Translations under genes and position numbers: made by a program
Source of the DNA: Lachnospiraceae bacterium
GTDB taxonomy: Bacteria > Bacillota > Clostridia > Lachnospirales > Lachnospiraceae
Assembly: GCA_021202335.1 (NCBI GenBank)
Contig: JAJQDE010000037.1
Span: 1-64,000 of the forward strand
Direction of reading: 5' to 3'
DNA: 64,000 bases
Shown here: positions 203 to 12,637 of the stretch, piece by piece
Layout of the letters: every line of letters begins with the position of its first letter
How positions within the stretch are numbered: the first letter of the stretch is position 1
Notes under the pieces: model-generated
Told to the model about the DNA's origin: nothing
Seen by the model: only the letters and a program-made list of their open reading frames with translations
The model's database searches: none

Positions 203-1867
203 ATGGAGGAAAAGGAAAGCTGTCTGCCAAGCGGCACGATACTGAAAAAGAGATATGAGATTTCCGGCGTGCTGGGAACGGGAGGCTTTGGGATTACCTA
301 TCGGGCGTTGGACCGGATGCTGGATTACGAGGTGGCGGTCAAGGAGTTTTTTCCACAGGAGCTGGTGACCAGGGACTCCGCTCAGTCTGCAAAAATGATA
401 CTCCCAAAGGATATGAAAGCGCGGAAAACGCTGAAGGAATGTTTTGCGAATTTTCGCCACGAGGCAAAAATTTTGGAGGCAGTCAGGGATGTGTCGTACA
501 TTGCACGCCTGAAGGATTATTTTTCGGAAAACGCGACGGAATACATTGTCATGAATTTGGTTCAGGGGCAGTCGCTTTCGGAATATGCAAGGAGCAGGGG
601 CGGGAAGCTTCCGGAGCAGGAGGCGCTTTCTTTGCTGAAAAATACCTTCGATACATTGGCGCAGCTGCATGAAATAGGGATTATTCACAGGGATATCAGC
701 CCCGGGAATTTGATGCTTTCCGGGGACGGGGGAGTTTATCTGATTGATTTTGGTTCGGCAACCTCCTTCGACGGCAGGGCAGACCTTGAAAGCAGACAGG
801 TCTTTTTGCACAGGGGGCTTGAGGCACCGGAACATTCCCGCTCCGACAGACAGGGGCCGTGGACTGATATCTTTTCGCTGTGCGCGACAATCGTCTGCCT
901 GATTACAGGTGAAGGAATCGCGCAGGCAAAGGACAGGCAGCAGTTTGATTATCTGCCGCAGCTTTTGGCGCGAAGTGCGCTTTCCGCCGGGCAGCAAAAT
1001 GCGCTGATAAGGGGGCTTAATCCGGATATTGACCGCCGCTTTGCCGCCATAGAGCCGCTCTATGAGGAGCTGTATGGAGAGGAGCTTGCGCAAAAGCCGT
1101 TTTCCGGAGAATGGCGCGTGTTTTATCACGCAAAGACATGCATCGGCTCAAAGGCAGTTAATCAGGACAATTTCATGGTGGACACGGTCTGCTGCTATAA
1201 GGGAGAGGACTGCGAGCAGTCGGGGCATTTAAGCTGTCTGCCGGAGGAAATTCATGTGGCGGCAGTATGCGACGGCGTGGGCAGCTCAAGCCACGGAGAG
1301 CTGGCGTCAAAAGCGGCAATACAGGCGGTAATCCATTTTGTGGAGGCTTATCCTGAGCGGGATGTGGTGCCGGACAGGCTTTTGGAGGAGCTGTTGGATC
1401 AGGTGAATGAGAAAATCATTCAGCTTGGCGGGAAAATCGGCATGACCGCAACCACCCTGTCGCTGCTTATGTGGCGCGGAAACCGCTATTATGCGGTGAA
1501 TATTGGCGACAGCCCCATCTTTTTCCTGAGAAAAGGGAAGCTTAAGCGCATCAGCACGACGCACACGAAGGCGGCGATGAACATGGAGCTGCAAAAGCCC
1601 GTGCAGAGCGCTGATTGGAATACGCTTATGCGCTTTTTGGGAAAGAAGGGCATGGCGGGAAGCCTGATGGCATCATTCAGCTGCGGAAGGCTGCAGGAGG
1701 GAGATATATTTCTGATATGCTCCGACGGCGTTTCAAAAAAGCTTGAGGAGAGCCGTCTGAAAAGCTTTCTTGCCAAAAAAGAGGAAAAATCCATTCAGGC
1801 GATGTTTAAGACGATAGAAAAACATAAGAACAACGACAACTGCACTGCGATTGTGCTTAAGTTTTAG
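203..1867 (+). CDS. Ser/Thr protein kinase fused to PP2C-type protein phosphatase
   Basis: Residues about 18-290 form an eukaryote-like kinase: glycine loop GTGGFG (25-30), ATP lysine in VAVKEF (K47), HRDISPGN catalytic loop (H162-N169), DFG (182-184) and APE (208-210). Residues about 305-554 form a PP2C phosphatase: GSKAVNQDN, VCDGVG (D357), NIGDSP, CSDGV and DNCT, which carry the metal-binding aspartates. Both halves keep their catalytic residues, so one soluble protein could phosphorylate and dephosphorylate targets. No transmembrane segment or PASTA repeat is seen, unlike PrkC. ATG 203 is preferred over TTG 197 because AGGAAGG (188-194) sits 8 nt upstream. An ilvE unit separates it from the 3189-10180 cluster, which may be its substrate set (inference). 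Confidence 0.9.
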   Translation: MEEKESCLPSGTILKKRYEISGVLGTGGFGITYRALDRMLDYEVAVKEFFPQELVTRDSAQSAKMILPKDMKARKTLKECFANFRHEAKILEAVRDVSYIARLKDYFSENATEYIVMNLVQGQSLSEYARSRGGKLPEQEALSLLKNTFDTLAQLHEIGIIHRDISPGNLMLSGDGGVYLIDFGSATSFDGRADLESRQVFLHRGLEAPEHSRSDRQGPWTDIFSLCATIVCLITGEGIAQAKDRQQFDYLPQLLARSALSAGQQNALIRGLNPDIDRRFAAIEPLYEELYGEELAQKPFSGEWRVFYHAKTCIGSKAVNQDNFMVDTVCCYKGEDCEQSGHLSCLPEEIHVAAVCDGVGSSSHGELASKAAIQAVIHFVEAYPERDVVPDRLLEELLDQVNEKIIQLGGKIGMTATTLSLLMWRGNRYYAVNIGDSPIFFLRKGKLKRISTTHTKAAMNMELQKPVQSADWNTLMRFLGKKGMAGSLMASFSCGRLQEGDIFLICSDGVSKKLEESRLKSFLAKKEEKSIQAMFKTIEKHKNNDNCTAIVLKF

Positions 1868-1900
1868 GCTTGGGCAGTTTAAGGCTTCGACCAAAAAATA

Positions 1901-1928
1901 TTGCTTTTATGTATTTTAGTGATATAAT
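1901..1928 (+). promoter_or_regulatory. Candidate sigma-A promoter for ilvE
   Basis: TTGCTT (1901-1906), a 16-nt spacer and TATAAT (1923-1928) lie about 95 nt before the ilvE start. This suggests ilvE is transcribed independently of the kinase gene. Confidence 0.5.
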
Positions 1929-2023
1929 AAGAAATTAAGAGGCTGTGGATATTACAGATACAGCTTTGCATATGAAAAATGAAGAGGAAAGGAAGCGAAA
2001 ACTCTTCGGAATGGAGGAAAAAA

Positions 2024-3046
2024 ATGGAGAAGAAGAACTTGGACTGGTCGGGTCTTGGCTTTGGTTACAGGCAGACGGACAAAAGATATGTTTCAAACTT
2101 TAAGGACGGCGCGTGGGACGCCGGCGCGCTGACGGAGGATGCGACGGTTATGTTAAGCGAATGTGCGGGAGTTCTGCAATATGCGCAGACCTGCTTTGAG
2201 GGCTTGAAGGCCTATACCACGCAGGACGGAAGGACTGTTGTGTTCCGCCCGGATTTAAACGAGCAGAGAATGCATGACAGCTGCGTGCGTTTGGAGATGC
2301 CCACACTTCCGGAGGGGCGCTTTGTCGAGGCGGTAAAGCAGGTTGTCAAGGCAAATGAGGCGTATGTGCCGCCATTTGGCTCGGGAGCCACGCTCTACAT
2401 CAGACCTTATATGTTTGGCACTAATCCCGTTATCGGTGTAAAGCCCGCTGACGAGTATCAGTTCAGAGTATTCACGACGCCTGTCGGGCCTTACTTTAAG
2501 GGTGGCGCAAAGCCGCTTACAATTCGCGTGAGTGATTTTGACCGCGCCGCACCGCACGGGACAGGTCACATCAAGGCGGGGCTTAATTATGCTATGAGTC
2601 TTTATGCCATTGTGTCTGCCCATGAGGAGGGCTTTGACGAGAATATGTATCTCGACCCTGCGACACGCACAAAGGTAGAGGAAACCGGCGGTGCAAACTT
2701 CCTCTTTGTCACAAAGGACAATAAGGTGGTTACGCCGAAGTCGTCAAGTATTCTTCCCTCAATTACGCGCCGCTCTCTGATGATTGTGGCAAAGGAGTAT
2801 TTAGGCCTGGAGGTTGAGGAGCGCGAGGTGCTGTTTGATGAGGTAAAGGATTTTGCGGAGTGCGGACTTTGCGGAACGGCGGCAGTTATCTCACCTGTCG
2901 GAAAGATTTCCGACCATGGAAAGGAAATATGCTTCCCTTCAGGAATGGACAAGATGGGTCCCATAACGCAAAAGCTCTACGATACATTGACGGGAATCCA
3001 AATGGGACGTATTGAAGCGCCAAAGGGCTGGATTGTTGAGATTTAA
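2024..3046 (+). CDS. ilvE: Branched-chain amino-acid aminotransferase
   Basis: PLP-dependent class IV aminotransferase that interconverts Leu, Ile and Val with their 2-oxo acids in the cytoplasm. The 340-residue length fits the IlvE type II family. Visible family motifs are CFEGLKAY, RPYMFGT, the PLP-lysine segment GHIKAGLNYA, EETGGANFLFV and ECGLCGTAAVISPVG. An in-frame ATG at 1979 would add 15 residues. ATG 2024 is chosen because GGAGG (2013-2017) is 6 nt upstream and the product MEKKNLDWSGLGF matches the usual N-terminus. It has its own promoter and a following hairpin, so it is a monocistronic insert between the kinase and the cluster at 3189. Confidence 0.93.
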   Translation: MEKKNLDWSGLGFGYRQTDKRYVSNFKDGAWDAGALTEDATVMLSECAGVLQYAQTCFEGLKAYTTQDGRTVVFRPDLNEQRMHDSCVRLEMPTLPEGRFVEAVKQVVKANEAYVPPFGSGATLYIRPYMFGTNPVIGVKPADEYQFRVFTTPVGPYFKGGAKPLTIRVSDFDRAAPHGTGHIKAGLNYAMSLYAIVSAHEEGFDENMYLDPATRTKVEETGGANFLFVTKDNKVVTPKSSSILPSITRRSLMIVAKEYLGLEVEEREVLFDEVKDFAECGLCGTAAVISPVGKISDHGKEICFPSGMDKMGPITQKLYDTLTGIQMGRIEAPKGWIVEI

Positions 3047-3068
3047 ATACACGTACCGTATTTATTAA

Positions 3069-3107
3069 CGGCGGCAGGAGCCATAAGCTTCTGACGCCGC
3101 TAATTTT
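3069..3107 (+). terminator. Imperfect intrinsic terminator after ilvE
   Basis: CGGCGgCAG (3069-3077) pairs with CTGaCGCCG (3091-3099), with an inner AGC/GCT pairing, followed by TAATTTTTG. One mismatch makes it moderate. Confidence 0.6.
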
Positions 3108-3109
3108 TG

Positions 3110-3138
3110 TTGTCTTATGTCAACAAATATTGTATACT
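3110..3138 (+). promoter_or_regulatory. Candidate promoter of the 3189-10180 cluster
   Basis: TTGTCT (3110-3115), a 17-nt spacer and TATACT (3133-3138) lie 50 nt before the first gene. It is the only good promoter match seen for the four-gene run. Confidence 0.55.
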
Positions 3139-3188
3139 AAATAATGAGCGTAAAATAAAATGCAAAGAATTTTTAAGGAAGTGAACGA

Positions 3189-6100
3189 ATGGGGGAAAGC
3201 GGCAAGCAGCAGCGCAGTCTGGAATTTTCCTGTGAGAGCATAGAGCTGAACATCAGGGCAGGAGAGGTATTTGAGGGAAGCTTTTTTATATACGCGGACG
3301 GAAAGCACGCGGAAGGGCGCATTTATTCCTCAGATACCAGAATGTGTCTGTCAGGCGCTGAGTTTAGAGGAAATGAATTTGAAGTGAAGTATAGCTTTGA
3401 CGGGACTGCGGCGGAGGCTGGAAATACAATCCGCGGTGAGTTTGACATCATCAGCAATTGCCGGGAGTACACCATTGCGTTTAAGGTAAACGTGCGCAAA
3501 CCGCAGTTGGAATGTTCGCTTGGAATTGTCAAAAACATGTTCCATTTCACGAACCTTGCGCAGACAAGCTGGGACGAGGCAGTGGAGCTTTTTTATTCGC
3601 CTGACTTTTCGTCAATATTCCACAGAAGCGATAAAAACGCGAGGCTGTCATACATAGGGCTTTCCAGGGATAAGGGAAACCCGCAGAATGTCGAGGAATT
3701 TTTAATTGAAATCAGCAAAAAGACTCCGATTATCTATTCCTTTGATATTGAGGGCTTTCTGCTGGAGGATGTGCAGGAGAGCACGCAAAGGCAGGTATGC
3801 ATTACGAGAAGCAGTTGGGGCTACAGCCGGCTGAGTATTCGGGCGGAGGGCGGTTTCCTGCGCACGGACAGGGAAACGCTTGAGAATGGTGATTTTGAAA
3901 ATAACAGATGTGTTTTAACAATATACATCGACGCCAAAAAGCTGCATAACGGCATGAACAGCGGGAGTATTCTGCTGAGCGACGCGTGCAACGATTATAC
4001 AATACCGGTTGATATTCTTATGGATGACGAGCCGGAAAAAAGGAACAGGGTCAGAAAACAAAAGCAGGCGTTATGCAATATAACAAGGCTGTATGTGGAT
4101 TTGCGCTTTGATAAGATAACCAAACAGGAGTGGCTGACCGCGCTTGAGGAAAATTTGGAGATGCCGGGAGCTTTTGACGAGGACGACCTGACTTACACGC
4201 TGCTTCATATTCGGCTGCTTTTGGATAAGGGGCGTGCAAATGAGGCAAGGTGGTACCTTGAAAATCTTGAGGAGCGTCTGCAGGCTGAAAATGCCTCTGA
4301 TGAGGCAAAGGGCTGCTATCTGTACCTTACCACGTTTGAGGACAACAGCAGCGAATATGTGGAGCGCGTGTGCGGCGAGCTTGAGAAGGCATATTCGGAC
4401 AGCCCCGGGAACTGGCGCCTTGCGTGGTTTTTGCTGCAGCTTAAGGAATCCCTTTTAAGGGATATGTACCTGCGCTGGCATTTTATAGAAGAAATGTATC
4501 AAAACGGCTGCGCAAGTCCGCTGATGTTTTGCGAGGCAGTGCTTATTTTGCGGGAAAATCCGGCGTTTTTGATTAAGCTCGACGATTTTGAGGAGAAGGC
4601 TTTGTGGTTTGGCGCGAAAAACCGTCAGCTTGCGCCTGCCCTGATAGAGCAGCTTCAATATCTTGAGGCGAGAAAGGAAAGCTATTCGCCGCTTCTGCTG
4701 AGGTCGCTGTATGAGGTCTATTATACCTTTAAGTCGCCGCAGACGGCTGCGTCCATCTGCCATATGCTCATACTTGGGGATAAGAGGAGCCCGGACTATT
4801 TTGCATGGTATGCGCTTGGCGTTGAGTATGCGCTCCGGGTCACAAAGCTTTATGAATATTATATGATGTCTTTGGACCTCGACAGGTACGGCGGCGTGAA
4901 GGAGAAGTCGCTGGAAATTCCCAAACAGGTGCTTTTGTATTTTGCATATCAGAGCACGCTTGACTATGAGCTGAACGCGTTTTTGTATGCGTATATCATT
5001 AAAAACAGGGAAAAATATCCCGATTTGGAGCAGAGCTACCGCATTGCGATAGAGCGCTTTGTCATGGAGCAGATAAAGGCAGGGCATATCAACGAAAACC
5101 TCGCCTACCTTTATCAAAGGATTCTCACGAAGCAGATGGTAACGGAGGAAACAGCCTATGCGTATACGCCGCTTTTGTTCATGCACCGCATTTACGTTGA
5201 CAATCCGAGGGTAAAGAGCGTCGCCGTGATTCACGAGAAGGTAAACGGCGAGAGCAGCTATCCCGTGACGGACGGTATCTGTATGATGCCTGTATACGGA
5301 AGCGAGTATAAGCTTTTTTTGCAGGATGAAAACGGTAACAGATTTACAAAGAGTATTCATTACGAAAACAGGCAGCTTATGGTTCCGGAAAAGCAGTTCT
5401 CTTATGTGAGCGGCTATATGCAGGGCAGGCTCAGCTTTGATATTTACCTGTGCGAGATGGACAAAAACTATGTTACGATTACGCCCGACAATGTAAAGCG
5501 CTTTAAAAATCTTGCGGAGTCCGAACAGGTGGTGGAGAGCTTTAAGAAGGAAATACGCACGAAGCTGCTGAAATTCTACTACGACAGCGATATGATAGGC
5601 GAGCTTGACGCCTTTTTGGAGGATATAGAGGCGGATGAGATGGAGTCGGGTGAGCGGGCGGAGTTTATACGATACATGGTTTCGCGAGGCATGTTTGAAA
5701 AGGCATACTACTGGCTTCGCACCTACGGCGCGGCGGACGTTGAGCCAAAGGCGGTGGCAAGGCTTATCAGCAAGCGCATTGTGAGCCGCGAATATGAGTA
5801 TGACGAGTTCCTTGTCAATGTGTCGTACTACATTTATAAAAGCATGAAGTACGATGAAAATATATTAAGATATCTTCTCAGGCACTATGAGGGCAGAGTT
5901 ACTGCCTTAAAGAAGCTGTGGAAATCGGCGTGCGAGCTTGAGCTTGACACGGGCGGCATTATGTATCGGATTTTAAAGCAGATACAGTACACGGGCGTGT
6001 CGCTTGCGGAGCGTGACGAGCTTCTTTTGGCGTATGCTCAATATCCCAGCCACGACATACAGCTTGTAAACGCCCTGCTGGTTGATACGGCGTATGAATA

Positions 6101-6773
6101 TTTTGTGTCCGAGACAATCGTTGCGCCTGAGGTATTTGACATGCTGTACCGGGCGATGAAAGAAGGGCTTGCCCCGGCGCGGGTCTGCAAGCTTGCCATG
6201 CTGAAATTCTGGTCCGAAAAGCCCGACAATATGCCGCCCGGAGCTGCGGACGGCATGCTGCATGAGCTTTTGAGGGAGAATATTTATTTTCCGTTTTATA
6301 AAAAGCTTGCGGATTATGTGCCGGAGCTGCACTATATCAAAAACTGCGTGTTTGTCGAGTACAGGACAAGCCCGGGCACGCCTGTCCGCATACATTATAT
6401 CTGCCGCGATGATTTCAGGCAGGGACAGGCGGGGGAGGATGCCGGCGCAAGGAGCGGTGAACGCTATGAAGCCATGGAGATGCGGGAAATGTTTGAGGGA
6501 ATTTATGTGAGCATGTTCCGGATTTTTCAGGGTGAGGCGGTGCAGTATTACATTACGGAAACGGCTCCGGAGCAGTCGGAGGGAGCCTCTGAGTATGCAA
6601 CTCAGAGCGACACTCTGTATTACGATGCGAAGGAAGGCGGAGGCGACCGCTTTTCAATACTGAACGATATCATTGTGAGCCTCGGAATGCAGGACGAGGA
6701 AACCGCGCTTGGCATGCTTGGAGAATATATGTACCGTGATTTCTGCTCGAGAGAGCTTTTCAGGGTTTTGTAG
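3189..6773 (+). CDS. Large cytoplasmic helical-repeat protein (DUF5717-like)
   Basis: A 1194-residue protein with no signal peptide and no membrane segment. Residues about 1-285 look like beta-sandwich domains with alternating hydrophobic strands (SLEFSCESIEL, REYTIAFKVNVRKP). Residues about 290-1190 are mostly amphipathic helices in a TPR/solenoid-like pattern (ARWYLENLEERL, YYWLRTYG), with a short beta-rich insert near 680-770. The function is not recognised. From memory, databases label similar Lachnospiraceae proteins DUF5717. It heads a run with an Hsp70-like protein, a TPR protein and a coiled-coil membrane protein, and sits downstream of a kinase-phosphatase. A scaffold role is an inference. 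AAGGAAG (3175-3181) supports ATG 3189. Confidence 0.8.
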   Translation: MGESGKQQRSLEFSCESIELNIRAGEVFEGSFFIYADGKHAEGRIYSSDTRMCLSGAEFRGNEFEVKYSFDGTAAEAGNTIRGEFDIISNCREYTIAFKVNVRKPQLECSLGIVKNMFHFTNLAQTSWDEAVELFYSPDFSSIFHRSDKNARLSYIGLSRDKGNPQNVEEFLIEISKKTPIIYSFDIEGFLLEDVQESTQRQVCITRSSWGYSRLSIRAEGGFLRTDRETLENGDFENNRCVLTIYIDAKKLHNGMNSGSILLSDACNDYTIPVDILMDDEPEKRNRVRKQKQALCNITRLYVDLRFDKITKQEWLTALEENLEMPGAFDEDDLTYTLLHIRLLLDKGRANEARWYLENLEERLQAENASDEAKGCYLYLTTFEDNSSEYVERVCGELEKAYSDSPGNWRLAWFLLQLKESLLRDMYLRWHFIEEMYQNGCASPLMFCEAVLILRENPAFLIKLDDFEEKALWFGAKNRQLAPALIEQLQYLEARKESYSPLLLRSLYEVYYTFKSPQTAASICHMLILGDKRSPDYFAWYALGVEYALRVTKLYEYYMMSLDLDRYGGVKEKSLEIPKQVLLYFAYQSTLDYELNAFLYAYIIKNREKYPDLEQSYRIAIERFVMEQIKAGHINENLAYLYQRILTKQMVTEETAYAYTPLLFMHRIYVDNPRVKSVAVIHEKVNGESSYPVTDGICMMPVYGSEYKLFLQDENGNRFTKSIHYENRQLMVPEKQFSYVSGYMQGRLSFDIYLCEMDKNYVTITPDNVKRFKNLAESEQVVESFKKEIRTKLLKFYYDSDMIGELDAFLEDIEADEMESGERAEFIRYMVSRGMFEKAYYWLRTYGAADVEPKAVARLISKRIVSREYEYDEFLVNVSYYIYKSMKYDENILRYLLRHYEGRVTALKKLWKSACELELDTGGIMYRILKQIQYTGVSLAERDELLLAYAQYPSHDIQLVNALLVDTAYEYFVSETIVAPEVFDMLYRAMKEGLAPARVCKLAMLKFWSEKPDNMPPGAADGMLHELLRENIYFPFYKKLADYVPELHYIKNCVFVEYRTSPGTPVRIHYICRDDFRQGQAGEDAGARSGERYEAMEMREMFEGIYVSMFRIFQGEAVQYYITETAPEQSEGASEYATQSDTLYYDAKEGGGDRFSILNDIIVSLGMQDEETALGMLGEYMYRDFCSRELFRVL

Positions 6774-6806
6774 GGAATGTACATTTCATAAAAAGGGGAA
6801 ACGGAA

Positions 6807-8126
6807 ATGTTTACTGATGCGTTGAAAAAGAACAGAGTAGTGGTAGGGATTGATTTGGGGAATGATTATACACAGCTTAGCTATTGCAGGGCTGACCGGA
6901 GCATGCCGGACACTATGAGCCTTGTGCCGGGCGAGGAGCAGTATAATATACCCACCCTTCTGTGCAGAGCGCATGAGCCGGGCGAAGGCGGCGCGTGGTT
7001 TGCCGGGAAGGAAGCGCTTAAGTGCGCCTCGCAGGGGAAGGGGCTTCTTGTAGAGGATTTAGTCCTTTTGGCAAAAAACAACGTGTCGGTAAAGGCGGGT
7101 GGGGAGGATGTCACGCCCGCAAAGTTGCTTACGATATTTATGGAAAAGGTGTTTGCCCTTTTGTCCGCTTATATAAGAACTGATGATATCGGAGGCGTCG
7201 CTTTTACGATGCGGGACATGAGCGCGCAGCTTATGGAAAATATCAGGAGTGCCGTGGAGCCGCTTGGACTTAAAAACGCAGAGGTTTATTTCCTGAGCCG
7301 CGAGGACTGCTTTTTTCAATACATGATTCACCAGCCTGAGGAAATGTGGATACACGATGTGCTCCTGTATGATTACCGCAGCGACGGCGTTAGAAGCTAC
7401 GTGCTTCAGATGAACAGGAAAACGAGTCCCGCGGCGTGCTTTATTGAAGCCGATATGTTTCCGCAGATGAAGCGTCAGGATATGACGGAGAGTACCGACG
7501 CTTTAAAAAAGGCATTTTACGGGCAGCTTGATGCGGAGCTTTTGGAAATAGCAAAAAAGCAGTGCGAAGAGCATAATATAACGTCTGTATTTTTATTGGG
7601 GGATTACTTTTCGAAGGAATGGTGCAGGGAGTCGCTGAGATACCTGTGCAAGGGAAGGCGCGTGTTTCAGGGAAACAACCTTTTCAGTAAGGGAGCCTGC
7701 TACGGCGCAAGGGAGCGGGTATATCCCTCCACGCTGTCGTCCTCTTACATCTATCTCTCGGAGGATAAGCTTCGCGCAAACATCGGCATGACCTGCGACA
7801 GGGGTCAGACGGAAATTTATTTCCCGATTCTCGACGCCGGTACGAGCTGGTATGACGCAAAGCGCGAGTTTGACGTGATGCTTGTAAAAAATAACACCTT
7901 CACTTTAAATATCGCGCCTGTTGACGGAAGCAGGACAAGGCTTGCGAAAATATCACTGGAGGGGCTTAACGTGCGCGGAAACAAGACAAACAGGGTAGGG
8001 CTTAAATTCTTTATGGAAAATCCGCAGGCTGTTCAGATAGAAATAACAGACAAGGGCTTTGGAGAGTTCTTCCCGTCTGCCGGCAGAAGGTGGAGGGAGT
8101 GTCTGCCGCTGGAGGTTATAAGCTGA
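6807..8126 (+). CDS. Hsp70/actin-fold ATPase-like protein (DUF5716-like)
   Basis: The 439-residue protein begins with a phosphate-1-like motif, VGIDLGNDYTQ (13-23), as in DnaK and actin-fold ATPases. Later segments resemble the adenosine region (VFLLGDYFSKEW) and the DnaK-like FSKGACYGA. The C-terminal ~120 residues are beta-rich and might be a reduced substrate-binding domain. The full DnaK phosphate-2 motif is not clear, so nucleotide hydrolysis is uncertain. It starts 33 nt after the solenoid gene with its own GGGGAAACGGA ribosome site and overlaps the next gene. From memory, related proteins are called DUF5716. Confidence 0.75.
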   Translation: MFTDALKKNRVVVGIDLGNDYTQLSYCRADRSMPDTMSLVPGEEQYNIPTLLCRAHEPGEGGAWFAGKEALKCASQGKGLLVEDLVLLAKNNVSVKAGGEDVTPAKLLTIFMEKVFALLSAYIRTDDIGGVAFTMRDMSAQLMENIRSAVEPLGLKNAEVYFLSREDCFFQYMIHQPEEMWIHDVLLYDYRSDGVRSYVLQMNRKTSPAACFIEADMFPQMKRQDMTESTDALKKAFYGQLDAELLEIAKKQCEEHNITSVFLLGDYFSKEWCRESLRYLCKGRRVFQGNNLFSKGACYGARERVYPSTLSSSYIYLSEDKLRANIGMTCDRGQTEIYFPILDAGTSWYDAKREFDVMLVKNNTFTLNIAPVDGSRTRLAKISLEGLNVRGNKTNRVGLKFFMENPQAVQIEITDKGFGEFFPSAGRRWRECLPLEVIS

Positions 8127-8959
8127 TGAATAACGTATGCTTATGCGTGGGGAAATATGCAAAAAATCCGTTTTACGTGAAGCTTTCGGATATATATCTG
8201 TACTCAATGGAGGAGCTGTGCTATTATTTTTTGGAAAGAGTGCATCTGCTTGATGAATCCGTTATATCCTCGGAGCTTGTGGAGTGGATAAGGAACGAAT
8301 GTGAGCTGGGAGAGCTTGCGGACGAGCTGGAGCTTTGCGTCAGGAAACGCGTGTCGGCATCGGTCTTTGTGACCACGATCCTTGAACGGACGGGAATGTA
8401 TGACGAGAGCACGGTAAAGCGTGTGGAACGCATCCTGAAGGAGCAGGCTTCGCTTACCACCGCGCAGCGCTACAAAAAGCGCGCGGAGTATCTTTACGGG
8501 CAGGGGCGTTTCAGGCAGGCGCTCGCAATCTATTCGGAGCTTTTGGATTATCTGCCGGAGTCGGACATTGAGCAGAGGGCGCAGCTGTATTACAATATGG
8601 CGTCGATTTATGCGATGGATTTTGCGTATGCGGAGGCTGCGGAGATTTACCGGCAGTCCTATCTTTTAAGCCCCGCGCGGCAGACAAGGTTGAGTCTTAT
8701 TCTGGCAAAAAAGATGTCGCTTTCGGATTATGCCTTTGGAAGCTTCCAAAGGGAAAATCCCGGCTGGGAAGAGGATTTTGCGCGCGCGGAGGAGCTTGCG
8801 GGCGAGGCTGCGGATAAGTGGTCAGCTTCCCGGGAGAAGGGGCTTACGGAGGAAATATCCGGGCTTCGGACAGATGGGAAAAGGAGCGATTATGACAGGC
8901 GGATGGGTGAGCTTATCGGGCAGCTTAAGAAGGATTACAGGCGTCAGACGATGGAATAA
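8126..8959 (+). CDS. TPR-containing protein of the kinase-associated cluster
   Basis: This 277-residue protein overlaps the previous stop as TGATG (8124-8128), with GGAGG (8111-8115) upstream, so translation is coupled. An N-terminal helical domain of about 105 residues (SDIYLYSMEELCYYFLERVHLL) is followed by a TPR array from about residue 115 (AEYLYGQGRFRQALAIYSELL, YYNMASIYAMDFAYAEAAEIYRQSYLLSP). The C-terminus is charged and probably extended. TPRs point to a protein-binding adaptor. The partners are not known; its neighbours are the natural candidates. Confidence 0.8.
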   Translation: MNNVCLCVGKYAKNPFYVKLSDIYLYSMEELCYYFLERVHLLDESVISSELVEWIRNECELGELADELELCVRKRVSASVFVTTILERTGMYDESTVKRVERILKEQASLTTAQRYKKRAEYLYGQGRFRQALAIYSELLDYLPESDIEQRAQLYYNMASIYAMDFAYAEAAEIYRQSYLLSPARQTRLSLILAKKMSLSDYAFGSFQRENPGWEEDFARAEELAGEAADKWSASREKGLTEEISGLRTDGKRSDYDRRMGELIGQLKKDYRRQTME

Positions 8960-8992
8960 AGTCGTCGGTGCAGGATTTTAGGAGAATTGCGG

Positions 8993-10180
8993 ATGGGATT
9001 ATTTAATAAAATCAAAGATATTTTTACAAGGGACAGTCAGGACGCTTCGGACGAATTTGACGCTGACAGGGAAGTAAACGGCTTAAACCGTGACAGGGTT
9101 GACATGCACGACTCCCTGCAGAGAGAGGCGTACATAAAGGCGTGTCTTGAACAGATGTCGGAGGCGTCCGGTGAGCTTGACATTTTGGGCGGAGAATACA
9201 ATCTGGTGACGTCCTATCTGACCGATATGGAGGAGATTGAGGCGCTCTCCCCGGAGTACAGGGAGCAGCTGAAGGAGTATGCAAAGAAGCTCCTGGAGCT
9301 TGAGGGCAATAAGGAAAAGCTTGAGGAAAAAAAGGGGATTATGCGCGAGGACGATTTTGCCCATATGGAGCGCATAGAGCAGTTTATGCCCGAGGGCTAT
9401 GAAAAGCTTAAGGAGGCGGAGGAATATCAGGTTGCCGTAAAGAAGGATTTGGGCAGGCTTGACGGGGAGCGCCATGCATATTATTTCAGACGCAATGAGC
9501 TGATAAATTCCCAAAAGAACATGAAGGGGATTACGCTTATCTGCGTAAGCTCAATGATTGCGCTGGTGCTTATCCTTGCATGCATCAGCATGCTTTTGCA
9601 GCTTGACGTGACAATCGGCTACGCAATCGCGGTGGTGATCGCGGCGGTCGCCCTCACGCTGGTCTATGTCAGGTTCCACGAATCGCAGAGGGAGCTTGTG
9701 CGGGTCGAAAAGTCGATAAATAAGCTTGTGCTCCTGCAAAACACGGTCAAGATACGCTATGTAAACAACACAAACCTTTTGGAATATCTGTATGTTAAAT
9801 ATGACGTCAACAGCTCCGTTCAGCTTAAAAAGCTTTGGGACAAATACGTTGAGGAGCTTAAGCGGCGCGAGGAGGAAAAGCAGATGCAGATGGACATGGA
9901 CGAAAATCAGGCGGCTCTTATCCGCCTGCTCAGACGCTGCCGTATACAGGACCCCGGCGTATGGCTCCATCAGGTTCAGGCTCTGATTGACAGCAAGGAA
10001 ATGGTCGAAATCAGGCATGAGCTGATTTTAAGAAGACAGAAGCTGCGAAAGCAGATGGAATACAACGCGAACGTGGCGCAGGAGGCGCAGGGAGAGGTGA
10101 AGGATATTGTCGGGCAATATCCGGAATACGCGGAAAAAATATTGGATTTGGTGTCGGATTATGAAAAAGCACTTGCATAA
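8993..10180 (+). CDS. Coiled-coil membrane protein of the kinase-associated cluster
   Basis: The 395-residue protein has a cytoplasmic coiled coil (about 40-175, rich in Glu, Lys and Leu), two adjacent membrane segments (about 179-203 and 207-227) and a second coiled coil (about 228-395). Both long arms would face the cytoplasm with a very short outside turn, giving a hairpin-anchored scaffold. No enzymatic motif is seen. ATG 8993 is chosen over TTG 8987 because AGGAG (8980-8984) is 8 nt upstream. It is the only membrane-anchored member of the cluster, so it may fix the complex to the membrane (inference). Confidence 0.8.
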   Translation: MGLFNKIKDIFTRDSQDASDEFDADREVNGLNRDRVDMHDSLQREAYIKACLEQMSEASGELDILGGEYNLVTSYLTDMEEIEALSPEYREQLKEYAKKLLELEGNKEKLEEKKGIMREDDFAHMERIEQFMPEGYEKLKEAEEYQVAVKKDLGRLDGERHAYYFRRNELINSQKNMKGITLICVSSMIALVLILACISMLLQLDVTIGYAIAVVIAAVALTLVYVRFHESQRELVRVEKSINKLVLLQNTVKIRYVNNTNLLEYLYVKYDVNSSVQLKKLWDKYVEELKRREEEKQMQMDMDENQAALIRLLRRCRIQDPGVWLHQVQALIDSKEMVEIRHELILRRQKLRKQMEYNANVAQEAQGEVKDIVGQYPEYAEKILDLVSDYEKALA

Positions 10181-10298: not shown

Positions 10299-11171
10299 AT
10301 GCAGCAGTTTACACCGATAAAAGAGGGAAAGGTACGTGAGGTTTATGATATCGGGGACAGCCTTGTCATTGTGGCGACCGACAGGATTTCTGCCTTTGAT
10401 GTGATTTTAAAGAACAGCATTGTGAAGAAGGGCGCCATTCTCACGCAGATGTCGAAATTTTGGTTCGACTATACGAAGGATGTAGTGCGCAACCACATGA
10501 TTTCAACTGATGTAAAGGACATGCCGGAGTTCTTCCGGAATGATAAATTTGACGGCAACAGTATGATGTGCAGAAAGCTTACCATGCTCCCGATTGAATG
10601 TATCGTGCGCGGCTATATAACGGGCAGCGGCTGGGCAAGCTATAAGGAAAACGGCACGGTCTGCGGAATAAAGCTTCCCGAGGGCTTAAAGGAGTCGCAG
10701 AAGCTTCCCGAGCCGATTTACACGCCGAGCACAAAGGCGGAGCTTGGGCTTCACGATGAGAATATTTCCTTTGAAAGAAGCATTGACGTGCTGGAAGAGA
10801 AATTCCCAGGGCACGGCGAGGAGTATGCAGCGCAAATTAAAGACTTAACGCTCGCGCTTTACAAAAAGTGCGCGGATTACGCATACGGCAAGGGCATTAT
10901 CATTGCCGATACGAAGTTTGAGTTTGGACTTGACGAAAACGGGAACGTTGTGCTTGGCGACGAGATGCTGACTCCCGACAGCTCGCGTTTTTGGCCGCTT
11001 GAGGGCTATGAGGCGGGAAAGGGGCAGCCTTCCTTTGACAAGCAGTTTGTGAGGGACTGGCTTAAGGCAAACCCCGACAGCGGATATCTGCTTCCGGACG
11101 AGGTTGTGGCAAAGACGGTCGATAAATATAAGGAAGCCTTTGCGCTTCTGACAGGCAGGAATTTTGATTAA
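10299..11171 (+). CDS. purC: SAICAR synthase
   Basis: Phosphoribosylaminoimidazole-succinocarboxamide synthase couples CAIR to aspartate with ATP in de novo purine synthesis. Motifs include KEGKVREVYD near the N-terminus, TDRISAFD, VRGYITGSGW, IIADTKFEFG and LGDEMLTPDSSR. The 290-residue length fits the eukaryote-like/Gram-positive long form. AGGAGG precedes the ATG. It is the first gene of a purC-purF-purB-purA series, with purF 17 nt downstream. Confidence 0.96.
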   Translation: MQQFTPIKEGKVREVYDIGDSLVIVATDRISAFDVILKNSIVKKGAILTQMSKFWFDYTKDVVRNHMISTDVKDMPEFFRNDKFDGNSMMCRKLTMLPIECIVRGYITGSGWASYKENGTVCGIKLPEGLKESQKLPEPIYTPSTKAELGLHDENISFERSIDVLEEKFPGHGEEYAAQIKDLTLALYKKCADYAYGKGIIIADTKFEFGLDENGNVVLGDEMLTPDSSRFWPLEGYEAGKGQPSFDKQFVRDWLKANPDSGYLLPDEVVAKTVDKYKEAFALLTGRNFD

Positions 11172-11188
11172 GCGGGAGCATATAAGCT

Positions 11189-12637
11189 ATGTACAATACA
11201 GGGATTGACACAAATGCCCCGGAAACAGGGCTGAATGAGGAATGTGGCGTCTTTGGCATCTATGACTTTGACGGTGGCAGCGTGGCGTCCACCATATATT
11301 ACGGACTTTTCGCACTGCAGCACAGGGGACAGGAGAGCTGCGGCATTGCTGTGAGCGAAACAAACGGTCCGAAAGGGAAAATAATGTCGCACAAGGGAAT
11401 GGGGCTTGTAAACGAGGTATTTACGCCTGACATTTTGGAACCTATGCGGGGAGATATCGGCGTGGGACATGTGCGCTATTCGACCGCGGGAGCGTCGACG
11501 CGTGAGAACGCGCAGCCCTTGGTGCTGAATTACGTAAAGGGCACGCTTGCGCTTGCGCATAACGGAAATCTGATTAATGCAACGGAGCTGCGCCACGATT
11601 TGGAGTATACGGGCGCTATTTTCCAAACCACCATAGATTCTGAGGTCATCGCCTATCATATCGCACGCGAGCGCCTGAACACGGGAACCGTTGAGGACGC
11701 AGTAAACAGGGCGTGCAAGAAGATAAAGGGCGCGTATTCGCTTGTGGTAATGAGCCCGCGAAAGCTTATCGGAGCGCGCGACCCGTTCGGCTTTAAGCCT
11801 CTTTGCATCGGAAAACGCGAAAACAGCTACATAATCACCTCCGAAAGCTGCGCGCTTGACACCATCGGCGCGGAGTTTGTGCGCGATGTGCTCCCGGGCG
11901 AAACGGTGACGATAACTGCCGACAAGGGCATTATCTCCGATATGTCGAGAGCGCTCCCGAAGGAGCAGGAGGCGCGGTGTATTTTTGAGTATATTTATTT
12001 TGCAAGACCCGACAGCCGCATTGACGGAGTGAGCGTATATGAATCAAGAATACGGGCGGGGAAATTCCTTGCAATGGATTCCCCCGTGGATGCGGATTTG
12101 GTGGTCGGCGTTCCGGAGTCCGGCAATGCCGCCGCGCTCGGATATTCGCAGCAGTCCGGAATACCCTACGGTACGGCGTTTGTCAAAAACAGCTATGTCG
12201 GCAGGACATTCATAAAGCCAAAGCAGAGCAGCCGTGAGTCGAGCGTAAAGGTAAAGCTTAACGTCCTGCGCGAGGCGGTGGACGGCAGACGGGTCATTAT
12301 GATAGACGACTCCATTGTCCGGGGGACGACCTCTGACAGAATCGTCAAAATGCTGCGGGACGCGGGCGCAAGAGAGGTGCATGTGCGGATAAGCTCGCCG
12401 CCGTTTTTATGGCCGTGCTATTTCGGGACGGACGTGCCCGCGAGCGACCAGCTGATTGCCTACAACAGGACTATTGAGGAAATCCGGGAGATTATCGGAG
12501 CCGATTCGCTGGGATATCTGAGCATAGACAGATTGCAGGAGATGGTTGACGGCCTTAAAATATGTAAGGGCTGCTTTAACGGAAGCTATCCGATAGAGCC
12601 TCCGACAGAGGATATCAGAGGCGATTTTGAAAAATAA
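11189..12637 (+). CDS. purF: Amidophosphoribosyltransferase
   Basis: This enzyme catalyses the first committed step of purine synthesis, making phosphoribosylamine from PRPP and glutamine. An 18-residue propeptide precedes Cys19 (NEE/CGVFG), which becomes the N-terminal nucleophile after cleavage. The PRPP loop is VIMIDDSIVRGTT. Cysteines matching the B. subtilis-type [4Fe-4S] ligands are visible in RCIFEYIYFARPDS, LWPCYFG and KICKGCFNGSYP, so an oxygen-sensitive cluster is expected. The 482-residue length is normal. GGGAG lies 10 nt before the ATG. Confidence 0.96.
   Translation: MYNTGIDTNAPETGLNEECGVFGIYDFDGGSVASTIYYGLFALQHRGQESCGIAVSETNGPKGKIMSHKGMGLVNEVFTPDILEPMRGDIGVGHVRYSTAGASTRENAQPLVLNYVKGTLALAHNGNLINATELRHDLEYTGAIFQTTIDSEVIAYHIARERLNTGTVEDAVNRACKKIKGAYSLVVMSPRKLIGARDPFGFKPLCIGKRENSYIITSESCALDTIGAEFVRDVLPGETVTITADKGIISDMSRALPKEQEARCIFEYIYFARPDSRIDGVSVYESRIRAGKFLAMDSPVDADLVVGVPESGNAAALGYSQQSGIPYGTAFVKNSYVGRTFIKPKQSSRESSVKVKLNVLREAVDGRRVIMIDDSIVRGTTSDRIVKMLRDAGAREVHVRISSPPFLWPCYFGTDVPASDQLIAYNRTIEEIREIIGADSLGYLSIDRLQEMVDGLKICKGCFNGSYPIEPPTEDIRGDFEK

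Follow-up and report, generated by a model that had tools for sequence, protein, structure and literature searches.

This analysis concerns a run of four forward-strand genes at positions 3189-10180 of a 64,000-nucleotide stretch of DNA from a member of the Lachnospiraceae (hereafter the window; contig C58 of the 2.74-Mb genome G000). The first gene (3189..6773) encodes a protein of 1194 amino acids assigned to Pfam families PF18984 (DUF5717_N, E = 5.6e-275) and PF18983 (DUF5717, 8.6e-75), and the second (6807..8126) a 439-residue member of PF18980 (DUF5716_C, 3.7e-99). Bit scores of 914.9, 252.2 and 331.8, against gathering cut-offs of 25, 25 and 34.7, place the proteins within these families, whose descriptions carry no function. 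The third gene (8126..8959), whose start overlaps the DUF5716 stop by one base, encodes a 277-residue tetratricopeptide repeat (TPR) protein, and the fourth (8993..10180, with ATG 8993 preferred as the start over TTG 8987) a 395-residue coiled-coil protein with a presumed membrane hairpin, read by eye from two neighbouring hydrophobic stretches at residues about 180-202 and 208-226 (9530..9670, forward strand). Gaps between members of the run are 33, -1 and 33 bases, and 142 and 118 bases separate it from its upstream and downstream neighbours, ilvE and purC. As a promoter and terminator scan, in which counts were near chance, found no forward terminator-like site at the junctions, it is plausible that the four genes form one transcript. 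Gene calls and Pfam confirmed all five proteins named in a preliminary description of this DNA, that is, these four and an upstream kinase-PP2C fusion, and the hairpin-bearing membrane protein proposed there is likewise present in the run.

The run was compared across 60 homologous loci, 40 from the organism's own family and 20 from other families of the order Lachnospirales; gene calls in these loci were mechanical and many of the genomes are fragmented. Own-family loci encoded DUF5717, DUF5716 and the TPR protein in 40 of 40 cases each and the hairpin protein in 35, while DUF5717 and an Hsp70 termed Hsp70-B were present at all 20 loci of other families (the latter by position and alignment A3) and the TPR protein at 17. 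The four genes make up a compact run that is conserved, and these loci, together with profile comparison, upheld the earlier proposal of a conserved unit of Hsp70 ancestry. Of 196 genomes sampled across the order, 94 have DUF5717_N (93 above the cut-off), including 22 of 22 own-family genomes; within the genus it was found in 35 of 38 (18/18 good assemblies). DUF5716_C tracks it, occurring in 89 of the 196 order genomes. A sample of the class yielded DUF5717_N in 10 of 245 genomes (nine own-family, one below the cut-off) and a sample of the phylum in four of 299, all from the own family. In the genomes sampled, DUF5717 is almost confined to the order Lachnospirales. The "solenoid-like" character previously attributed to DUF5717 was not borne out, as Pfam returned only stray TPR-type matches, each in one of 38 members (TPR_19, 0.071; PknG_TPR, 0.13; ANAPC3, 0.77), and a PDB sequence search only a weak match to SRP72 (E = 0.061). 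PDB searches with DUF5716 (DnaK, 0.017) and the hairpin protein (a designed protein, 0.00074; keratin, 0.095) also gave weak matches only.

The other Lachnospirales families carry a longer operon, in the order DUF5717, Hsp70-A, GrpE fusion, Hsp70-B, Hsp70-C, Hsp70-VWA fusion and TPR, so that DUF5717 is common to the short and long forms alike, though in these families it is often split into genes of ~390 and ~900 amino acids. The five genes between DUF5717 and TPR encode Hsp70-A (~559 aa), the GrpE fusion (~560-645 aa, with the GrpE domain at its end), Hsp70-B (~460-565 aa), Hsp70-C (~550 aa) and Hsp70-VWA (~692 aa, with a VWA domain replacing the lid). Pfam recognised GrpE in 19 of 20 GrpE-fusion members and both HSP70 and VWA in 17 of 17 Hsp70-VWA members. 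All five genes stood in order at 17 of the 20 loci, L067 among them, where the stretch stops inside the VWA gene; of the other three, L056 has its VWA gene in two frames and a short GrpE protein, L064 has no VWA gene at the locus, and L070 ends ahead of it. Mean column identity was high for Hsp70-A (77%), Hsp70-VWA (76%) and Hsp70-C (72%) and lower for Hsp70-B (43%) and the GrpE fusion (33%). A Defluviitaleaceae metagenome-assembled genome (L121) showed the end of Hsp70-B (34% identity to L055), Hsp70-C (76%) and the start of Hsp70-VWA (77%) in the same order; it was the only locus accepted among 80 kept from a scan of named genomes with the Hsp70-VWA alignment, the other 79, at 34-38%, being set aside on identity alone, with search patterns that mostly caught ordinary DnaK.

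The two fusions of the long operon also follow DUF5717 at the level of genomes. Outside the own family, Hsp70-VWA occurred in 67 of 72 genomes with DUF5717 versus one of 102 without it (Fisher p = 6e-41) and the GrpE fusion in 67 of 72 versus two of 102 (p = 2e-39), p values that overstate independence because the species are related. DUF5717 and Hsp70-VWA shared a contig within 30 kb in 37 of 67 genomes, distances measured from the one or two DUF5717 positions used in each genome. Neither fusion was found in any of the 22 own-family genomes. At L056 (G003:C25:34000-53500), from the genome nearest to the own family on the trees described below, the Hsp70-VWA gene and the TPR gene are both spread over two frames that overlap or adjoin, and the GrpE protein is only 279 residues long; these irregularities are either assembly errors or signs of an operon undergoing reduction.

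A Pfam scan gave no HSP70 match for DUF5716, although hhalign aligned it with Hsp70-B at 3.1e-53 (428 columns), Hsp70-C at 2.6e-20 (417 columns) and Hsp70-A at 2.0e-6 in a comparison covering these three, and the alignments to Hsp70-B and Hsp70-C place its homology over both the nucleotide-binding and the beta substrate domains. Motifs were read from 36 rows of DUF5716, 20 each of Hsp70-A, -B and -C, and 17 of Hsp70-VWA. The phosphate-1 T-T, the phosphate-2 GGG-T with its D, and the catalytic lysine were kept in every row of Hsp70-A (20/20), Hsp70-C (20/20) and Hsp70-VWA (17/17). In DUF5716 nearly all rows have other residues at the T-T and GGG-T positions, and the catalytic lysine was present in none of the 36 DUF5716 and none of the 20 Hsp70-B rows. 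In the window protein, alignment places the remnant of the phosphate-1 loop at 6846..6866 (GIDLGND replacing GIDLGTT) and that of the phosphate-2 loop at 7371..7394 (DYRSDGVR replacing DLGGGTFD), both on the forward strand.

Downstream of the phosphate-2 remnant a stretch the size of subdomain IIB is missing. The span from phosphate-2 to the adenosine motif measures 58-75 residues in DUF5716 (36 rows), against 130-150 in Hsp70-B and 141 in the organism's own DnaK, leaving ~70 residues missing where DnaK has most of subdomain IIB. Taking the boundaries of this subdomain, and the docking of GrpE there, to be those of E. coli DnaK, with the gap placed by alignment, DUF5716 is on this evidence without a complete subdomain IIB, the GrpE-docking lobe, and this gap parallels the lack of a GrpE fusion in the own-family genomes sampled. 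Its chain also stops after the beta domain, before any helical lid (six rows aligned to DnaK). The best-conserved part is the end of the beta domain with the motif D-x-GFGE-x-FPS, shared with Hsp70-B and partly with Hsp70-C. Judged by its aligned residues, DUF5716 is a dead Hsp70-B, without the ATPase-cycle residues, the lid and a IIB-sized stretch. The operon proteins as a group are homologous to the DnaK/Hsp70 and GrpE pair, with DUF5716 and Hsp70-A, -B, -C and -VWA all of Hsp70 descent and a GrpE-type domain of the long operon's own, but differ from it in that all four operon Hsp70s are without a helical lid in the rows aligned, one bearing VWA instead, and in that both DUF5716 and Hsp70-B lack the ATPase residues. 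The term "chaperone" used in the preliminary description is doubtful for the window version, as DUF5716 is without these residues.

DUF5716 might nonetheless serve a working chaperone, its beta domain acting as a substrate or adaptor site for the cell's DnaK and GrpE and the four genes forming a client-specific co-chaperone set. The beta end is indeed conserved, TPR proteins are common partners of Hsp70s, and the genome has three other Hsp70s, DnaK-like in the tree: DnaK itself and two more of about 578 and 583 amino acids (G000:C23:17702-19384 and G000:C27:13303-15015), which cluster with DnaK rather than with the Hsp70s of the operon. However, Pfam found no J domain in the run, and the protein has lost the IIB-sized lobe along with the ATPase residues, so we consider a co-chaperone role unlikely. 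No J protein was found at the long-operon locus L055 either.

In a tree of 79 Hsp70s, DUF5716, Hsp70-A, Hsp70-C, Hsp70-VWA and DnaK each formed one group and Hsp70-B was split by DUF5716. The DUF5716 group was supported at 100/99, and its neighbour, also at 100/99, was the Hsp70-B of G003, a genome that carries the long operon and belongs to another family. With DnaK as the outside group, DUF5716 falls inside Hsp70-B. The tree of DUF5717 likewise united G003 with the own family (100/100) but, being unrooted, allows loss and gain alike, so that the direction of change between the two forms has to be read from the Hsp70 tree with DnaK outside. The short form could instead be ancestral, with the active Hsp70s and the GrpE fusion added in the other families, as the unrooted DUF5717 tree needs one change either way and its midpoint root lies between the own family plus G003 and the rest. 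Against this, the Hsp70-B proteins of L062 and L063 and those of the other families branch earlier than DUF5716 in the DnaK-rooted tree, albeit on long branches, and compared with all other Hsp70 groups measured the IIB-sized gap is a derived state, one that dates the protein and not the loss of genes. We consider an ancestral short form unlikely.

The remaining two proteins of the run also have counterparts in the long form. The N-terminal ~185 residues of the TPR protein match the ~387-residue long-operon TPR protein (hhalign 2.7e-29 over 179 columns), and although the window protein lies below the TPR cut-offs (best match 0.0011), its homologue at L055 has clear repeats (TPR_2, 5e-26). The hairpin protein matches a homologue in other families at 1.8e-42 over 334 columns; by script the homologue at L057 has two hydrophobic segments, and the pair in the window protein was merged into one. 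This homologue was seen at five of the 20 long-form loci, a lower bound because, among the 15 loci without it, at least six are on stretches that stop short of the TPR gene or no more than about 1 kb beyond it. The membrane tethering suggested in the preliminary description thus suits the window and most own-family loci, and extends less clearly to the other families. At L046 (genus g7), a class I tRNA synthetase gene with a valyl-type C-terminal arm (2222-4972) follows the TPR gene, and the hairpin gene was not found in that locus.

These observations are best explained if the window run is a reduced operon whose dead Hsp70 has been kept as a nucleotide-independent scaffold, a reading to which we give a probability of roughly 0.6. 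The short form would have arisen through loss from the longer operon. In its full form the operon may encode a dedicated Hsp70 machine, in which lidless Hsp70s with their own GrpE act on a DUF5717-centred complex, and in the other families the active Hsp70s would drive that complex. DUF5716 and Hsp70-B would be non-cycling adaptors that grip DUF5717 and the TPR protein through the substrate-domain-like beta end with its D-x-GFGE-x-FPS motif. In the own family the engine would have been lost and a static scaffold of DUF5716, DUF5717 and the TPR protein retained, tethered to the membrane by the hairpin protein at those loci that encode one.

Several observations weigh against this interpretation. 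Hsp70-B and DUF5716 sit on long branches, which the tree program flags as a risk for false joins, and support is weak (79/26) at the deepest Hsp70-B forks. The DUF5717 tree, in turn, fits loss and gain equally, and support for its split between G003 and the own family reaches only 85/70. The loss of motifs is compatible with nucleotide binding by DUF5716, and the finding that no Hsp70 groups with Hsp70-A or Hsp70-C applies to the window genome only. Outside the own family, five genomes with DUF5717 have no Hsp70-VWA (G006, G016, G111, G162 and G167) and five no GrpE fusion (G016, G111, G162, G167 and G186), while in 30 of the 67 genomes DUF5717 and Hsp70-VWA lie on separate contigs, through either fragmentation or real splitting. 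Finally, among the 20 own-family loci from other genera, five lack the hairpin protein, and it was seen in few long-form loci, so membrane anchoring is not general.

The long operon resembles a theme of GAP1-N2 GTPase-centred systems, which, in the available text of PMC7159879, combine HSP70, GrpE, an HSP70 without the substrate-binding domain (SBD-less) and FNIII and TPR components. The likeness extends to the HSP70, GrpE, SBD-less HSP70, TPR and VWA parts, and would suit a conflict or defence system of this kind, but the long operon has DUF5717 where the theme has its FNIII component. GAP1-N2 was detected in only one of 25 DUF5717-containing genomes tested, on a different contig, and none of the nine genes scanned at L055 matched a GTPase (a TRAFAC GTPase with zinc ribbons was sought). 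PADLOC matched none of the four window proteins, returned generic kinase matches for the neighbouring kinase and gave weak PDC-M61B matches for two of five long-operon proteins scanned, Hsp70-C and Hsp70-VWA, and the presence of DUF5717 in every own-family genome sampled is unlike a defence island. Both the GAP1-N2 system and anti-phage defence were rejected, and a defence function is very unlikely.

TerY-P triads offer a further comparison, being composed, in the available text of PMC11090510, of VWA, PP2C and kinase domains, all of which occur in the material considered here. The resemblance stops there: the domains do not share one conserved locus, the VWA domain is joined to an Hsp70, a fusion with no match in the own-family genomes sampled, Pfam gave no VWA match in the window run, and the kinase-PP2C fusion is not conserved beside it.

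That fusion (203..1867, forward strand) is a single frame of 554 amino acids from ATG 203, with a Ser/Thr kinase domain (Pkinase, 2.5e-31) followed by PP2C_2 (4.7e-18). The preliminary description had envisaged a membrane-tethered chaperone or signalling assembly under its control. The kinase-PP2C gene and the run share one strand within 10 kb, and kinase, PP2C, VWA and Hsp70 modules are combined in published systems (TerY-P and GAP1-N2; available text of PMC11090510 and PMC7159879). In the neighbourhood survey on which that proposal had been staked, however, the fusion was found at none of the 60 loci homologous to the run, and about 1.3 kb including ilvE lies between the two; the contig starts at window base 1, placing the far side of the kinase outside the sequence. 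Only one of these loci gave any match (L120, G224:C2:58900-75000), with separate PP2C and kinase genes at 1143-2385, upstream of DUF5717 at 5987; these are probably an ordinary PP2C/PASTA-kinase pair that neighbours the run by chance.

All 60 relatives searched gave some kinase match, the best among the matches listed reaching 40% over the kinase part, and, the window excepted, none among the matches listed spans kinase and PP2C. Eight of the ten nearest kinase loci were scanned (L082-L088 and L091) and none had a PP2C match at 1e-5; six bear other C-terminal parts, namely MORN repeats (two), YARHG (two), DUF285 (one) and NADase-translocation (one), and two no further known domain. Because the fusion is absent from the homologous loci and PP2C from the scanned kinases, the kinase was judged to lie outside the system: that it belongs to the four-gene run is not supported by these comparisons, and no support was found for control by reversible phosphorylation. 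As a conserved association the proposal fails here, and we consider it highly improbable. The scanned kinases, from same-genus genomes and G018, have a similar kinase domain with differing C-terminal parts, and the window PP2C fusion looks like another such combination.

Among 20 same-genus loci, the branched-chain aminotransferase gene ilvE (1979..3046, forward strand; NCBIfam 5.6e-138) lies immediately upstream of the run in eight, counting one fragment at the beginning of a contig. It was rejected as part of the system, as upstream genes vary between genera; for example, an ABC transporter with MacB/FtsX permeases is found in L037 and amidohydrolase and SIS genes in L059. Downstream, the unrelated genes at 10299..12637 on the forward strand, named from the sequence, are presumably purC and purF.

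A role in sporulation or spore-coat assembly was suggested by the frequency of SpoIVA in the order (144 of 196 genomes), but was rejected, as only 10 of 22 own-family genomes have SpoIVA versus 22 of 22 with DUF5717, and many genomes from other families of the order carry SpoIVA but no DUF5717; of the explanations considered it is the least probable. Twelve of the 22 own-family genomes, all nearly complete, gave no SpoIVA match, and sporulation may therefore have been lost in some genera.

The proposal that this is an undescribed system agrees with the literature, insofar as no account of the four-gene run was found in the open-access papers searched (subscription papers and preprints lying outside this scope). 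The names DUF5717 and DUF5716 led to no related open-access study, the sole match being unrelated by its title, and a term search of the available text of a survey of DnaK duplications (PMC11019930) returned nothing for Lachnospir, Clostridi or VWA. The analysis makes a testable system of two anonymous Pfam families that occur in every own-family genome sampled. More tentatively, and with less confidence than in the reduced-operon reading, we propose that the order may possess an undescribed Hsp70 machine built around DUF5717, comprising three lidless active Hsp70s (one VWA-tipped), one dead Hsp70 and its own GrpE, of which the core would work without an ATPase of its own, the pseudo-Hsp70 being indispensable and the active chaperones accessory. 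To our knowledge, dead Hsp70s have been little studied in bacteria, and the one described here appears to persist beyond its active paralogues. A natural experiment is offered by lineages that have the motor (three Hsp70s and GrpE) and a lineage that lacks it, around the same scaffold, and if a DUF5717-centred Hsp70 machine does exist, the own family would show its core functioning without an ATPase of its own.

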